DNA from: Segatella copri
GTDB taxonomy: Bacteria; Bacteroidota; Bacteroidia; Bacteroidales; Bacteroidaceae
DNA: 45,898 nucleotides
Reading direction: 5' to 3'
Assembly: GCF_009494395.1 (NCBI RefSeq)
Contig: NZ_VZCB01000022.1
Span: forward strand, 1-45,898
The notes under the pieces were generated by a model that did not search any database, was not told the origin of the DNA, and saw only the letters and a program-made list of their open reading frames with translations. Made by a program: the position numbers and the translations under genes. This document shows positions 15,585 to 33,045 of this stretch, piece by piece (the stretch's first letter is position 1; every line of letters begins with the position of its first letter).

Positions 15585-17432
15585 TTATTTCATATTCTCG
15601 CCTTTTTCGGCGAAATATTTCGCAAGAATTTCGGCTTTATGAGGGCCTAATACCTCGGTAAGTTGTTCCAGCGATGCTTCTTTTATCTTTTTCACGCTCT
15701 TAAACTTGCTCAGGAGCGCCTCTTTTGCCTTAGGACCGATGCCTTTGATATCGTCTAGTTCCGAATGCAGAGCGTGCTTGCTTCGCTTTTCGCGATGGAA
15801 GGTGATGGCGTATCTATGTACCTCGTCCTGTATCTGCGTCAATACCTTGAAAAGCTCGCTTTCTGGTGGTAGAGCGATGGTTTGTGGCGGAAAACCGTAG
15901 AGAAGTTCGTTGGTGCGATGGCGGTCATCCTTGGCAAGACCTGCGATAGGGATTTCCAGGTGCAGTTCGTCTTCTATCACCTCTCTTACCACCTCCATCT
16001 GCCCCTTGCCACCATCGGTGATGATGAGGTCTGGCAGGGGAGTTTCTTCCTCTATCATGCGGCTGTATCTTCGTCTTACCACCTCCTGCATCGAAGCATA
16101 ATCATCCGGTCCTTCCACCGTCTTGATGTTGTATTTTCTATAGTCCTTTCTTGATGGTTTCATACCTTTATATACTATACATCCAGCTACGGCATCCGTG
16201 CCCGATATGTTGGAATTATCGAAGCATTCTATCTGATAAGGCAGTTTTGGCAGTTTTAGTTTTACCTGCAATTCCTTCATCAATCGGGTTTGCTTCTGTT
16301 CCGGATTGAGCTTTTCTGCCTGCTTCAAACGGTCGAATTTATACTGCTTGCAGTTCATTTCCGATAGCTCCAGAAGGTGCTTTTTGTCGCCTCTCTGCGG
16401 CACGAAGAAGGTGGCGTCTTTTAGTTTCCATTCCATCTCGAAAGGCACGATAATCTCTTTCGAAGTGGAGTGGAAACGCTCTCTGATTTCAGGTATGGCG
16501 GTAATCAGAAGCTCCTCGTCGCTCTCCTCCAGCTTGCGTTTATATTCGTAGGTGAAGCTCTGGTTGATGGTGCCGTTTTTCACGTGAATATAGTTGATGA
16601 AGGCGTTCTTGTTGGCGTCATCATTCACGATGGTGAAGACATCTACGTCGGTAATGGTATGGCTTACCACCTCGCTTTTTGCCTCAAATTCGTCCAACAA
16701 CTGATACTTCTTTTTGTATTCTTCGGCAACCTCAAAGCGGAGAAGTTCGGCATTTTTCATCATCAAGTCATAGAGATATTTGCCAACTTCCCGGGTGTTT
16801 CCCTTCAGAATTTCACGTGCTTGGCGCATGTTTTCCTGATATTCCTCGTAGCTTTGTTTGTTGATGCAAGGTGCTCCGCAGTTATGAATATGATACTCTA
16901 AACAGGGTTTATATTTGCCTTCAGCAACGCCTTGTTTTGTGATGGGAAAGCGGCATGTGCGTGGTTTGTAGAGCTTTTTGATGACCTCTAAAACTGCATA
17001 CATGCTGCCTATATGAGGGTAAGGACCGAAGAATGTTCCCACCTTTTTATTGATATGGCGAGTCTTGAAAATGCGAGGAAAATACTCGTTTGTAACGCAT
17101 ATAGAGGGGTAGGTTTTGCCGTCTTTCAGCAAAACATTATACCTTGGATTATACTTTTTAATAAGGCTGTTTTCCAGCAAAAGTGCATCTTCTTCGGTAT
17201 TGACGACGGTGTATGAGATGTCGAAAATCTTAGAAACAAGTACCTTTGTCTTGTATCTATCTACCTCTTTATGGAAGTAGGATGACACTCTTCTCTTCAG
17301 ATTTTTCGCCTTTCCCACGTATATAATCGTATGGTTTTCGTCGTAATATTGATAGCTTCCTGGCTTCTCCGGCATGCTTAAAACTATACTTTTTAGCCTT
17401 GCTAATCTTTCCTCATTTTCTTGTTTCGTCAT
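15585..17432 (-). CDS. uvrC: Excinuclease ABC subunit C
   Basis: The 615-residue product makes both incisions in nucleotide excision repair, together with UvrA and UvrB. The N-terminal GIY-YIG nuclease domain is clear (KPGSYQYYD, then IIYVGKAKNLKRRVSSYF). A UvrB-binding region lies near the middle, followed by the RNase H-like C-terminal nuclease with ECFDNSNISG and VVRRRYSR, and helix-hairpin-helix DNA binding at the end (DDIKGIGPKAKEALL). All parts are present and the length is normal. It is preceded by apt, with an unusual hairpin holding a parS-like site in the gap, and followed by dtd. Confidence 0.97.
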   Translation of the reverse strand: MTKQENEERLARLKSIVLSMPEKPGSYQYYDENHTIIYVGKAKNLKRRVSSYFHKEVDRYKTKVLVSKIFDISYTVVNTEEDALLLENSLIKKYNPRYNVLLKDGKTYPSICVTNEYFPRIFKTRHINKKVGTFFGPYPHIGSMYAVLEVIKKLYKPRTCRFPITKQGVAEGKYKPCLEYHIHNCGAPCINKQSYEEYQENMRQAREILKGNTREVGKYLYDLMMKNAELLRFEVAEEYKKKYQLLDEFEAKSEVVSHTITDVDVFTIVNDDANKNAFINYIHVKNGTINQSFTYEYKRKLEESDEELLITAIPEIRERFHSTSKEIIVPFEMEWKLKDATFFVPQRGDKKHLLELSEMNCKQYKFDRLKQAEKLNPEQKQTRLMKELQVKLKLPKLPYQIECFDNSNISGTDAVAGCIVYKGMKPSRKDYRKYNIKTVEGPDDYASMQEVVRRRYSRMIEEETPLPDLIITDGGKGQMEVVREVIEDELHLEIPIAGLAKDDRHRTNELLYGFPPQTIALPPESELFKVLTQIQDEVHRYAITFHREKRSKHALHSELDDIKGIGPKAKEALLSKFKSVKKIKEASLEQLTEVLGPHKAEILAKYFAEKGENMK

Positions 17433-17459
17433 ATCTCTAAGGAGTTTTTAAGGGTAAAA

Positions 17460-17493
17460 GAGCGTTGCTGTTCCACGTGAAACTGCAACGCTC
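17460..17493 (-). terminator. Terminator-like hairpin between apt and uvrC with parS as its loop
   Basis: Arms GAGCGTTGC (17460-17468) and GCAACGCTC (17485-17493) are perfectly complementary. The 16 bases between them are exactly the parS-like site, itself a near-palindrome. On the - strand the hairpin is followed by TTTTACCC, so it could terminate apt transcripts. Confidence 0.75.
17469..17484 (+). promoter_or_regulatory. parS-like ParB binding site 1
   Basis: TGTTCCACGTGAAACT matches the parS consensus TGTTnCACGTGAAACA at every position but the last. parS sites nucleate the ParB-CTP partition complex and usually lie near oriC. No parA or parB gene is in the window. Confidence 0.8.
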
Positions 17494-17544: not shown

Positions 17545-18075
17545 TTACAACTGTAATAGAGTAGATACTTCTACGTCGTCATCGAAGATTTTTCTGCCTT
17601 CGAAATTCTCGTTTACAAGCTCGATAATGAAGTTTGCATATACTTTTTTCGGGTGGAATTTCTTCACCAGATTGCATGCAGCCTTCATGGTTCCGCCGGT
17701 AGCGAGAAGGTCGTCGTGGAGGAGGATTACATCGTTCTCATTGATGGCATCTTCGTGGATTTCGATAGTGTCCATACCGTATTCCTTTGCGTAACTTTCC
17801 TGTACGGTTTTGCAAGGAAGTTTACCTGGCTTGCGGCATAAAACTACGCCTGCACCGAGTCGGATAGCTAGGGCAGAAGACATTACGAAACCGCGTGATT
17901 CGATACCTACGATTTTGGTAATTCCCTTATCTTTGTAGATCTCGTACATCTCGTCACAAATCTCTTTGAGAGAATCTGGATTCTTGAAAAGGGTGCTGAC
18001 ATCGCGGAAGTTTACACCCTTGATTGGCCAATCTGGAATGCAACGCAGATTGTCTAATAATAGCTGATTATTCAT
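17545..18075 (-). CDS. apt: Adenine phosphoribosyltransferase
   Basis: The 176-residue product salvages adenine by transferring the phosphoribosyl group of PRPP to give AMP. The type I phosphoribosyltransferase PRPP loop VILLHDDLLATGG is at about 116-128, and IVGIESRGFVMSSALA near 55-70 is the typical purine-side segment. Size is normal. The order mnmG, apt, uvrC, dtd on one strand looks like an operon; parS-like sites lie in the gaps on both sides of apt. The start codon ATG gives MNNQLLLDNLRCIPDWPIKGVNF, a usual N-terminus. Confidence 0.95.
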   Translation of the reverse strand: MNNQLLLDNLRCIPDWPIKGVNFRDVSTLFKNPDSLKEICDEMYEIYKDKGITKIVGIESRGFVMSSALAIRLGAGVVLCRKPGKLPCKTVQESYAKEYGMDTIEIHEDAINENDVILLHDDLLATGGTMKAACNLVKKFHPKKVYANFIIELVNENFEGRKIFDDDVEVSTLLQL

Positions 18076-18259: not shown

Positions 18260-18311
18260 ATAAAATACTTGATGTAACCATGTTTAATTGGCTAGATATC
18301 AAGTATTTTAT
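18260..18311 (-). terminator. Hairpin downstream of mnmG
   Basis: ATAAAATACTTGAT (18260-18273) and ATCAAGTATTTTAT (18298-18311) are perfectly complementary over 14 bases around a 24-base loop. AT-rich ends could give a T-tail on either strand. It lies about 60 bases past the mnmG stop. The remainder of 18076-18369 holds a parS-like site and a doubtful small reading frame, discussed as a finding. Confidence 0.65.
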
Positions 18312-18319
18312 GTATATTG

Positions 18320-18335
18320 CGTTTCACGTGGAACA
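18320..18335 (-). promoter_or_regulatory. parS-like ParB binding site 2
   Basis: On the - strand TGTTCCACGTGAAACG matches parS at 15 of 16 positions and shares its first 15 bases with site 1, in opposite orientation and about 850 bases away. It lies 34 bases past the mnmG stop codon. Confidence 0.8.
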
Positions 18336-18369: not shown

Positions 18370-20241
18370 TTATCTTCCTAGCAGTACCAGCAGTACGTTG
18401 ATGTCGCTTGGAGAAACTCCTGGAATTCGACTTGCCTGAGCTAAGGTTTCCGGATCGATTCGTTCAAGCTTTTGGCGGCCTTCTGTGGAGATTTCCAGTA
18501 TCTCGGAATACTTGAAGCGTCCTTTGATTTTGATGTTCTCCAGTCGGTGCATCTTGTCTGCGATGAGTCGTTCTCGATCGATGTATCCTTTGTACTTCAT
18601 TTTGATTTCTGCCGCTTCTGCAATCTCTTCTTTTCGATTGGCTGGCGCATCCATCGCTGCCTTCAGGTCGGGAATAATCTCCGATAGATTTTGAAGGTTC
18701 AAGTGTGGACGAGCAACGAGGTCGATAAGTTTGCAGCCTGCTCGAAGTGGTGTTGTGCCTAGAGCCTCAAGTTTTGGATTGATCTCGTCTTTCTTGATAG
18801 GATAGTTTGCGCAGAAGTCAATGATTCTTTCGATGGCATTTTTCTTCTCCATCCACCAGTCGTAGCGGTCGCGTTTGGCAATGCCCAGCTCGTATGCTTT
18901 CTCGGTGAGTCGGGAGTCGGCATCGTCTTGTCGGAGTAGGATGCGATATTCGGCTCTTGAGGTGAACATTCTGTAAGGCTCGTCAACTCCCTTTGTTGTG
19001 AGGTCATCGATGAGTACGCCGATGTAACTTTCGTCTCGTTTCATTTCGAAAGTCTTGTCGCCAGTACAATGTAGGGCTGCGTTGATTCCAGCAACGGTGC
19101 CTTGGCCTCCAGCTTCCTCGTAACCGGTGGTTCCGTTCACCTGTCCGGCAAAGAAGAGACCCTTGATGATTTTCGACTCCAGCGAATGCTTGAGTTGGGT
19201 AGGGTCGAAGTAATCGTACTCGATGGCGTAACCTGGTCGGTAAATCTTGGCGTCTCTCAATGCTGGAATTTCATGGAGTGCCTTCAGCTGGATGTCCATC
19301 GGCATACTTGATGAAAATCCGTTCAGATACATTTCATTCGTGTCTTCGCCTTCTGGTTCCAGAAATAACGGATGCTGTTCCTTGTCTGGGAAGGTGACGA
19401 GCTTGGTCTCGATGCTTGGACAATAGCGAGGACCGGTGCTTTGAATCTGACCATTATATAAAGGAGAGTCATCGAGTCCGCTTTTCAGAATGTCGTGAAC
19501 CTTCTTGTTGGTGTAACATGTCCAGCAAGGAAGTTGCTTCAGTATGCGATGATCGCACATGTATGAAAATTGATGGAAGTCGCTGTCGCCAGGTTGCTCT
19601 TCCATATCTTCAAAGTGAACGCTGCGCTTGTCGATGCGGACCGGTGTTCCTGTTTTCATTCTTGCAGTGGTGATTCCCCATCGGGTGATGCTTTCGGTGA
19701 AATGATGAACGGCAGGTTCTGCACATCTTCCACCTTCCACCATCTTTCTTCCCACGTGCATCAGTCCGTTGAGGAAAGTGCCGGCAGTAATGATGATGCT
19801 CTTGCCGTAGAACTCAGCGCCCCAGATGGTGCGCACACCGATGGCTTCTCCGTCGGCAACGAGCAACTCGTCGGCCTGGTCTTGCCAGATGTCGAGGTTG
19901 TCGGTGTGGTCGAGTATGGTTCTCCACTCCCAGATGAATTTACCTCGGTCGCATTGTGCTCTAGGACTCCATACGGCTGGTCCCTTGCCGATGTTCAGCA
20001 TTCTGAACTGGATGGCGGTCTTGTCAGTGACAATACCCATCTGTCCGCCCAGTGCGTCAATCTCTCGTACAATCTGTCCCTTTGCAATGCCTCCGATGGC
20101 AGGATTGCAACTCATCTGACCAATCTTGTTCATGTCCATCGTTATCAAGCAGGTCTTGGCTCCCATGTTTGCGGAGGCAGCTGCAGCCTCGCATCCGGCG
20201 TGGCCACCACCGATAACGAGAACGTCATAATTGAATCTCAT
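18370..20241 (-). CDS. mnmG: tRNA uridine-5-carboxymethylaminomethyl modification enzyme MnmG (GidA)
   Basis: The 623-residue product works with MnmE to modify the wobble uridine of several tRNAs, using FAD. The N-terminal dinucleotide fold VIGGGHAGCEAA is at 9-20 and the family segment CNPAIGGIAKGQIVREIDALGG follows. FAD- and tRNA-binding portions are complete and the C-terminal helical domain ends normally (SRIPGVSPSDINVLLVLLG). It starts the housekeeping run on the - strand and shares a divergent promoter region with the fumarate reductase operon. The presence of parS-like sites just downstream recalls the gidA-oriC linkage of many bacteria. Confidence 0.97.
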   Translation of the reverse strand: MRFNYDVLVIGGGHAGCEAAAASANMGAKTCLITMDMNKIGQMSCNPAIGGIAKGQIVREIDALGGQMGIVTDKTAIQFRMLNIGKGPAVWSPRAQCDRGKFIWEWRTILDHTDNLDIWQDQADELLVADGEAIGVRTIWGAEFYGKSIIITAGTFLNGLMHVGRKMVEGGRCAEPAVHHFTESITRWGITTARMKTGTPVRIDKRSVHFEDMEEQPGDSDFHQFSYMCDHRILKQLPCWTCYTNKKVHDILKSGLDDSPLYNGQIQSTGPRYCPSIETKLVTFPDKEQHPLFLEPEGEDTNEMYLNGFSSSMPMDIQLKALHEIPALRDAKIYRPGYAIEYDYFDPTQLKHSLESKIIKGLFFAGQVNGTTGYEEAGGQGTVAGINAALHCTGDKTFEMKRDESYIGVLIDDLTTKGVDEPYRMFTSRAEYRILLRQDDADSRLTEKAYELGIAKRDRYDWWMEKKNAIERIIDFCANYPIKKDEINPKLEALGTTPLRAGCKLIDLVARPHLNLQNLSEIIPDLKAAMDAPANRKEEIAEAAEIKMKYKGYIDRERLIADKMHRLENIKIKGRFKYSEILEISTEGRQKLERIDPETLAQASRIPGVSPSDINVLLVLLGR

Positions 20242-23998: not shown

Positions 23999-24060
23999 TT
24001 CTCAAAAACCCTTCACTCTTCACCTTTTGAGTGTAAGCGATTGAAGGATAGGCAGTTGGG

Positions 24061-24110
24061 TGGGTGAAGAGTTGAATTGACTCTTCACCCACCCTTCACC
24101 TTTTTATAGG
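24061..24110 (+). terminator. Second hairpin, built from GAAGAGT repeat units, with a T-tail
   Basis: TGGGTGAAGAGT and ACTCTTCACCCA (12 bases, perfect) enclose 7 bases, followed after ACCCTTCACC by TTTTTATA. It looks like a terminator, possibly formed from repeat units of the GAAGAGT class seen elsewhere in this gap. Confidence 0.55.
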
Positions 24111-24176: not shown

Positions 24177-24286
24177 GGTGAAGAGTAGTGAAGAGTAGTG
24201 AAGAGTCAGCGCCACTCTTCACCTCACAAATCCCCTGTGTTTATCGGGATTTCAGGCTAAATGGTGAAGAGTGAAGAGTGAAAACG
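24177..24286. repeat. GAAGAGT-type tandem repeats in the 23937-24623 gap
   Basis: The gap of nearly 690 bases has no gene. It contains three direct copies of GTGAAGAGTA-like units (24179-24207) facing an inverted copy ACTCTTCACCT (24213-24223), and another short array GTGAAGAGTGAAGAGTG near 24264-24280. Units match those at 5898-6023 and 30975-31006. Confidence 0.7.
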
Positions 24287-32833: not shown

Positions 32834-33045
32834 CGGCGGATTTGCAATCCGCCGTCAAAAAATGTTCGACCTCTTAACCCCGGGGGATTTGTAATCCCCC
32901 AACAAAAGAAAAAGCATACTCCTTTGCTGCGGATTTCAAATCCGCAGAGCCTCAATAGGTTAGGACATTTTTTAACGCCGGATTTCAAATCCGCCGGGTC
33001 GCCTAACGGTTTCAATCCGGCGGGTCGTCTGGCGGATTTGCGTTC
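32834..33045. repeat. Cluster of REP-like palindromes
   Basis: At least four hairpins share a GGATTT-nn-AATCC-type core: 32834-32854 (CGGCGGATT/AATCCGCCG), 32882-32900 (GGGGGATT/AATCCCCC), 32927-32947 (CTGCGGATTT/AAATCCGCAG) and about 32977-32997. A decayed fifth lies near 33005-33040. They occupy most of the gap between the S41 protease terminator and the transporter gene. No gene is seen. Confidence 0.75.

Follow-up and report, generated by a model that had tools for sequence, protein, structure and literature searches.

One palindrome between apt and uvrC of Segatella copri probably has two uses, as a parS that would be read by ParB and as the tip of a hairpin that would terminate apt transcription. 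With parS and a likely apt terminator in one palindrome, one sequence would serve two machines. The simplest account is that a palindrome fixed for ParB has been turned into the tip of an apt-end hairpin by several lineages. On this account, a widespread centromere-like site would have become part of ordinary gene punctuation on more than one occasion. The protein site would stay fixed, and the arms on either side of it would evolve under the constraint to pair.

The element and its predicted fold

The window is the whole stretch of DNA analysed here, positions 1-45,898 of the forward strand of contig NZ_VZCB01000022.1 in the S. copri assembly GCF_009494395.1, a draft of 3.9 Mb in 111 contigs. 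The genes mnmG, apt and uvrC are co-oriented in it (Table 1). On the minus strand, the element reads GAGCGTTGC-A-GTTTCACGTGGAAC-A-GCAACGCTC and is followed by TTTT. The stop codon of apt lies 51 bases ahead of it, and 27 bases separate the hairpin from the uvrC start.

Table 1. Features at and around the apt-uvrC gap of the window
Feature	Position	Strand	Basis or remark
Imperfect palindrome, 34 bp	17460..17493	-	Likely intrinsic terminator of apt, by its predicted hairpin past the gene; parS as upper stem and loop
parS core, site B, GTTTCACGTGGAAC on apt strand	17470..17483	.	apt-uvrC gap; the assembly has one other exact core
Hairpin 5' arm, GAGCGTTGC on apt strand	17485..17493	-	Sequence and covariation
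Hairpin 3' arm, GCAACGCTC on apt strand	17460..17468	-	Sequence and covariation
TTTT, 3' of hairpin on apt strand	17456..17459	-	Sequence
apt, adenine phosphoribosyltransferase	17545..18075	-	NCBIfam NF002636, above cut-off
uvrC, excinuclease subunit C	15585..17432	-	NCBIfam TIGR00194, above cut-off
mnmG (gidA)	18370..20241	-	NCBIfam TIGR00136, above cut-off
Second parS core, site A, without arms	18321..18334	.	mnmG-apt gap; exact core

A sequence-only reading of the window had placed GAGCGTTGC at 17460-17468, TGTTCCACGTGAAACT at 17469-17484 and GCAACGCTC at 17485-17493 and had claimed the minus-strand TTTT. Re-reading the sequence confirms these letters and places, with the TTTT present as AAAA at 17456-17459. 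The same reading took the 16-base site to be the exact open loop of the hairpin. Instead, parS is predicted to form the upper part of the stem in a single hairpin.

In the fold predicted for the apt strand, 9 pairs are followed by a single A/A mismatch, 5 further pairs within parS and a 4-base loop. Its energy is -21.2 kcal/mol with a z of -4.9, and none of 200 shuffles (0/200) was equally stable. G-C pairs make up 6/9 of the lower stem, so that a stable G+C-rich transcript stem, as in an intrinsic terminator, stands just 3' of apt. These arms at a gap of 3-20 are found once in the 3.9 Mb assembly, which rejects a genome-wide repeat, and a known RNA family is rejected as the element has no Rfam match.

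Identity and spread of the parS site

Site B is almost certainly a chromosomal parS, at which ParB binding is predicted. Its 14-base core matches the degenerate core GTTYCACGTGRAAC at 14/14. Against the plain consensus TGTTTCACGTGAAACA, the 16-mer matches at 14/16 with two mismatches; the 15/16 given earlier is true only against TGTTYCACGTGRAACA.

Exact GTTYCACGTGRAAC cores occur twice in the 3.9 Mb assembly, 851 bp apart, both in the window and flanking apt. Allowing one mismatch adds 1 place in the assembly against 4 for a reversed control pattern, so the exact matches alone are informative. Counting 16-mers that differ from parS at no more than 3 places gives 2, and 0.17 are expected by chance. 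The cognate ParA and ParB genes are adjacent on another contig (C57) of the assembly. The ParB carries the ParB_N, HTH_ParB and ParB_C domains (N-terminal, HTH and dimerisation), and its nearest solved chains are Spo0J and ParB. A consensus core, few clustered copies in a conserved position and a cognate ParA/ParB pair are thus all found, as for a chromosomal parS.

The core is widespread. It is present in 80/100 genomes of the genus (exactly two copies in 68; reversed control 3/100), in 142/149 of the family (control 11/149), in 139/148 of the phylum (control 7/148) and in 118/119 of the family of genome G567 (control 2/119). The genus loci L001-L259, with 8 lacking apt and 78 duplicates dropped, gave 173 distinct apt loci including the window. 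Among the named relatives in one Apt-based scan (best 80 of 149), the nearest is Segatella copri with an Apt 98% identical.

Both exact cores surround apt in 140/173 of these deduplicated loci, and the gene order mnmG-parS-apt-parS-uvrC is conserved. The others have the B core only (16), the A core only (6, in 2 of which the uvrC start is out of view) or neither (11). Among the deduplicated loci that show both apt and the start of uvrC, an exact B core is present in 156/171, and 11 of the 15 loci without it have B at one mismatch.

In 8 loci (L039, L053, L057, L079, L107, L108, L178 and L197), an identical one-base variant, CACATG or its complement for CACGTG, occurs at both sites. Such paired variants suggest a joint change of the two parS sites and, presumably, of ParB.

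Site A has spacing features of its own. It ends 34 or 35 bases ahead of the apt start in 48/146 genus loci, as against 245 bases in the window. The same 34/35-base spacing is seen in 23/26 Bacteroidaceae loci where apt adjoins parS, as measured from tblastn match starts. Between site A and apt, the window also has an inverted repeat (18260-18311) whose perfect 14-base arms stand 24 bases apart and for which Rfam gave no match.

Covariation of the arms

The S. copri-group alignment comprises the window, L050, L006 and L051 and is gap-free over 60 bases. All 14 pairs are formed in 4/4 sequences, that is, in 56/56 cells, and RNAalifold recovers the same hairpin unaided. Both sides have changed in 5/9 arm pairs, compared with 1.5 in shuffles and 0 in all slid controls. 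All these two-sided changes set L051 apart from the other three sequences, so they may represent one evolutionary stretch. In genome G778, the letters at the hairpin are identical to those of L051.

The compensating changes are the strongest sequence evidence that the arms are selected, from a small set of four sequences, in which the structure behaves as one under selection. The non-Watson-Crick cells in the four sequences are all G-U on the apt strand, three in the arms and one in the core, with none broken. One arm pair is G-U in two sequences and another in one; the core pair is G-U in the window, which has no other. This pattern favours an RNA of the apt strand as the form in which the pairing would be kept.

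Recurrence of the arms

We scored contiguous Watson-Crick arms of at least 7 beside the core, and the null paired 5' and 3' flanks across loci. Such arms occur at the apt-uvrC site B in 11/156 genus loci against 0.22 expected, and at the mnmG-apt site A in 0/146 against 0.08 expected. With a lower bar, a run of 6, site A has 2/146 against 0.31 expected. The alternative count of at least 9 of 11 pairs gives 11/156 at site B (0.45 expected) and 0/146 at site A (0.17 expected).

When loci are instead scored by a fold energy of at most -15, the apt strand has 17/156 at site B and 1/146 at site A, and the opposite strand 18/156 and 2/146. Hence no strand preference is seen at site B by fold energy (17 on the apt strand vs 18 on the other). 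In the arms of all 18 hairpins, G-U and A-C cells number 9 and 7, and this comparison has no strand signal either.

Labelling a locus by arms or energy (the union label) yields hairpins in 18/156 genus loci, and the strict label holds the 11 loci with arms. By construction of the search, each counted hairpin centres on an exact parS core. A FastTree tree was built from concatenated pieces of MnmG, Apt and UvrC; on it, the 18 union hairpins require at least 13 changes and the 11 strict ones at least 8, where gain is indistinguishable from loss. The arm sequences vary among lineages.

In the other 138/156 genus loci, parS is retained but a strong hairpin is missing. The sequence-only reading had named this outcome as one that would refute arms acting together with the site, and the arms are rejected as a component of parS. 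The C.A core variant is found in 0/18 hairpin loci and 40/138 others; its p of 0.007 is nominal because the rows are related, and the contrast is partly circular because the union label uses fold energy. With the arms-only label, the counts are 0/11 and 40/145 with a nominal p of 0.067.

Outside the genus, we used 87 loci of other genera or families, 59 from the family and phylum sets and 28 from the family of G567. Arms of at least 7 are present at 2/51 parS sites 3' of mnmG against 0.04 expected, where the 51 include Bacteroidaceae mnmG-apt sites, and at 2/52 sites 5' of mnmG against 0.06 expected. Elsewhere they are present at 0/14 sites. In L277, from another bacteroidotal family, parS at 2228-2241 lies between perfect arms of 16 bases at a distance of 20 bases past mnmG, and TTTTATTT comes next on the strand of mnmG; L349 has 11-base arms 21 bases past mnmG.

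Likely termination of apt

The hairpin is likely a terminator for apt with parS within it, at which RNA polymerase would stop. The sequence-only reading had called it terminator-like, and a parS inside such a hairpin is supported by the exact cores, the recurrent arms, the covariation and the enrichment of T past the arms. In the ten bases 10-19 past the core, the 11 strict hairpin loci have 5.5 T and the 145 others 2.2. The tail direction is not clean, because A in the mirrored ten bases ahead of the core is also raised, at 5.4 against 3.6. The tail in the window is just UUUU, and a simple terminator scan, which requires 5 T in 8 together with a loop length of 3-8, left the element uncalled.

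In the mechanism we propose, the palindrome centre would be bound by ParB as duplex DNA, and the arms and centre together would fold as an RNA hairpin, which is followed by UUUU and would end apt transcription. RNA polymerase would traverse parS before it stops, because the T-tract lies beyond parS. The hairpin would guard uvrC against read-through rather than parS against RNA polymerase. The arms may have been gained repeatedly, as few substitutions outside the core would be enough; the 14-bp palindrome already gives the hairpin top.

A terminator at this place is not generally needed, because only 17/138 non-hairpin loci show an alternative one. These have a separate G+C-rich hairpin with a T tail between apt and parS by a stringent search, compared with 0/18 hairpin loci. 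Moreover, uvrC may need read-through or a promoter overlapping the element, because the gap between the hairpin and uvrC is only 27 bases.

This short gap and the common direction of mnmG, apt and uvrC would also suit a hairpin that does not terminate. It would then be a 3'-end stabiliser or an RNase processing point in an apt-uvrC transcript, again with parS at the tip. The T-tract of 4 that the scan left uncalled fits this role, as do the weak T tails in several hairpin loci such as L098, L224 and L241. The enrichment of T past the arms and the occurrence of arms at the apt-uvrC site with none at the mnmG-apt site speak against it, and we regard it as unlikely. Termination of apt is the reading that we prefer.

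A block in parS register ahead of uvrC

The gap between apt and uvrC is under a second, unexpected constraint, by a block locked to parS. The B core ends 36-42 bases ahead of the uvrC start in 107/156 loci, and its distance from apt ranges from about 4 to 500 bases (5th to 95th percentile). Among loci without the hairpin, the leaders of the 88 whose gap is 38-42 hold 20.4 bits of information when aligned by parS vs 14.1 when aligned by the start codon. The 41 loci that have the modal gap gave a 22-base profile, AAAAACCCTTTAAACAAAGGAG, and with it the parS register beats the start-codon register in 61/70 other loci scored, with gaps of 34-48 and 45 loci left unscored.

At site A, the downstream block tracks the start codon instead (14/14 loci with a gap of 34). 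Among the 18 hairpin loci, the best block match is in exact register in 8, weakly so in L109, and one base off in 2. In the window, the block is undetectable at 17433-17459 on the minus strand, where the best score is 2.2.

The -7 box of Bacteroidota promoters is TAnnTTTG. This motif is present in just 1/88 of the uvrC leaders searched, so no promoter is identified. We also rejected CTTTAWACAAAGG, taken from the block, as a general promoter, since its 19 matches in 8/12 genomes include 3 at uvrC. Further matches include an unrelated repeat in genome G024 (L367, L374, L378-L382), where several copies carry TTTAGCTACG...AGCTACG, or a similar sequence, ahead of CTTTAWACAAAGG and adjoin no parS. 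The block resembles a rigid unit in parS register, which could be a uvrC promoter or an extended centromere.

In another reading, ParB bound at parS would be a roadblock or operator that switches the terminator or the expression of uvrC, and segregation would be coupled to purine-salvage and repair genes. A possible link of chromosome partition with transcription had also been suggested in the sequence-only reading. The block register in 61/70 loci scored is consistent with such a switch, and in Pseudomonas aeruginosa the promoters beside parS3 and parS4 are described as repressed by ParB (PMC5521831). The hairpin is missing in 138/156 genus loci and the block is undetectable in the window, so the switch seems to us improbable here.

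A broader version makes parS the hub of a composite control element, in which a single rigid DNA stretch would serve as apt terminator, centromere and uvrC leader alike. ParB loading would then set the amount of transcription that continues from apt into the DNA-repair gene uvrC. We give this version the same low standing as the switch. If it were true, gene expression would read out chromosome segregation.

Cruciform and chance readings

The sequence-only reading offered a cruciform recognised together with the site as another explanation. The arms and parS, a 34-bp near-palindrome, would be capable of extrusion, and they could be read as one, either as a cruciform in the DNA or as an extended site for ParB. 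All counted hairpins do centre on an exact parS core, though by the construction of the search. The G-U cells of the S. copri-group alignment, which fall in two pairs of the arms and one of the core, would be mismatches in DNA and leave the cruciform unsupported. Moreover, no fixed arm sequence would be read, because the arms differ between lineages, and parS stands without a hairpin in 138/156 genus loci. We therefore reject the cruciform or extended site, which is very improbable.

Chance complementarity around parS, to which the lack of arms in most genus loci and the small set of four sequences could lend some room, is hardly credible and is rejected by the recurrence of arms at site B (11/156 vs 0.22 expected) and by the 5 arm pairs changed on both sides.

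Comparison with known systems

The proposed dual-use palindrome resembles the chromosomal parS of ParABS systems of the Spo0J/ParB type in having a core palindrome in two clustered copies, genes for ParA and ParB and a conserved gene order. Unlike the known ones, the core here is also, though only in certain lineages, the tip of an RNA hairpin that is predicted past the end of a gene and is conserved. As a likely terminator, it resembles the Rho-independent ones in having a 9-bp lower stem with 6 G-C pairs and a position 51 bases past the apt stop codon. It differs from the typical ones in that the upper stem and loop would be a fixed protein-binding site, for ParB as predicted, and the U run that follows is just 4 long. 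It differs also in that the arms turn over and the tip is constant.

The P. aeruginosa parS3 and parS4 are similar in that parS adjoins genes whose transcription it could influence (PMC5521831). There, promoters are reported to be repressed, whereas here the site is shared with a likely terminator, as predicted from sequence. In gut bacteria including Bacteroides caecimuris, parS clusters are described from the consensus with two mismatches allowed together with Hi-C, and the B. caecimuris cluster is said to accompany a large origin domain in the Hi-C maps (PMC10197239). The site described here shares the consensus and the phylum with that cluster.

A search of titles and abstract openings in the open-licence literature gave no report of a parS within a terminator among the matches listed, which include papers on plasmid RA3 with both words. 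Relatives with and without arms make a natural set for comparing RNA polymerase, termination and ParB loading at one place.

Other hairpins in the window

Perfect hairpins with a stem of at least 9 and a loop of 3-16 number 14 in the window, whereas 12 shuffles average 2.25; the window thus holds other such hairpins as well. A neighbouring pair at 24058-24094 and 24198-24222 has common GTGAAGAGT arms. At 32834-33000, there is a series of short hairpins armed by GGATT...AATCC, three of them with perfect stems of 8-9 and the series with no tRNA or Rfam match.
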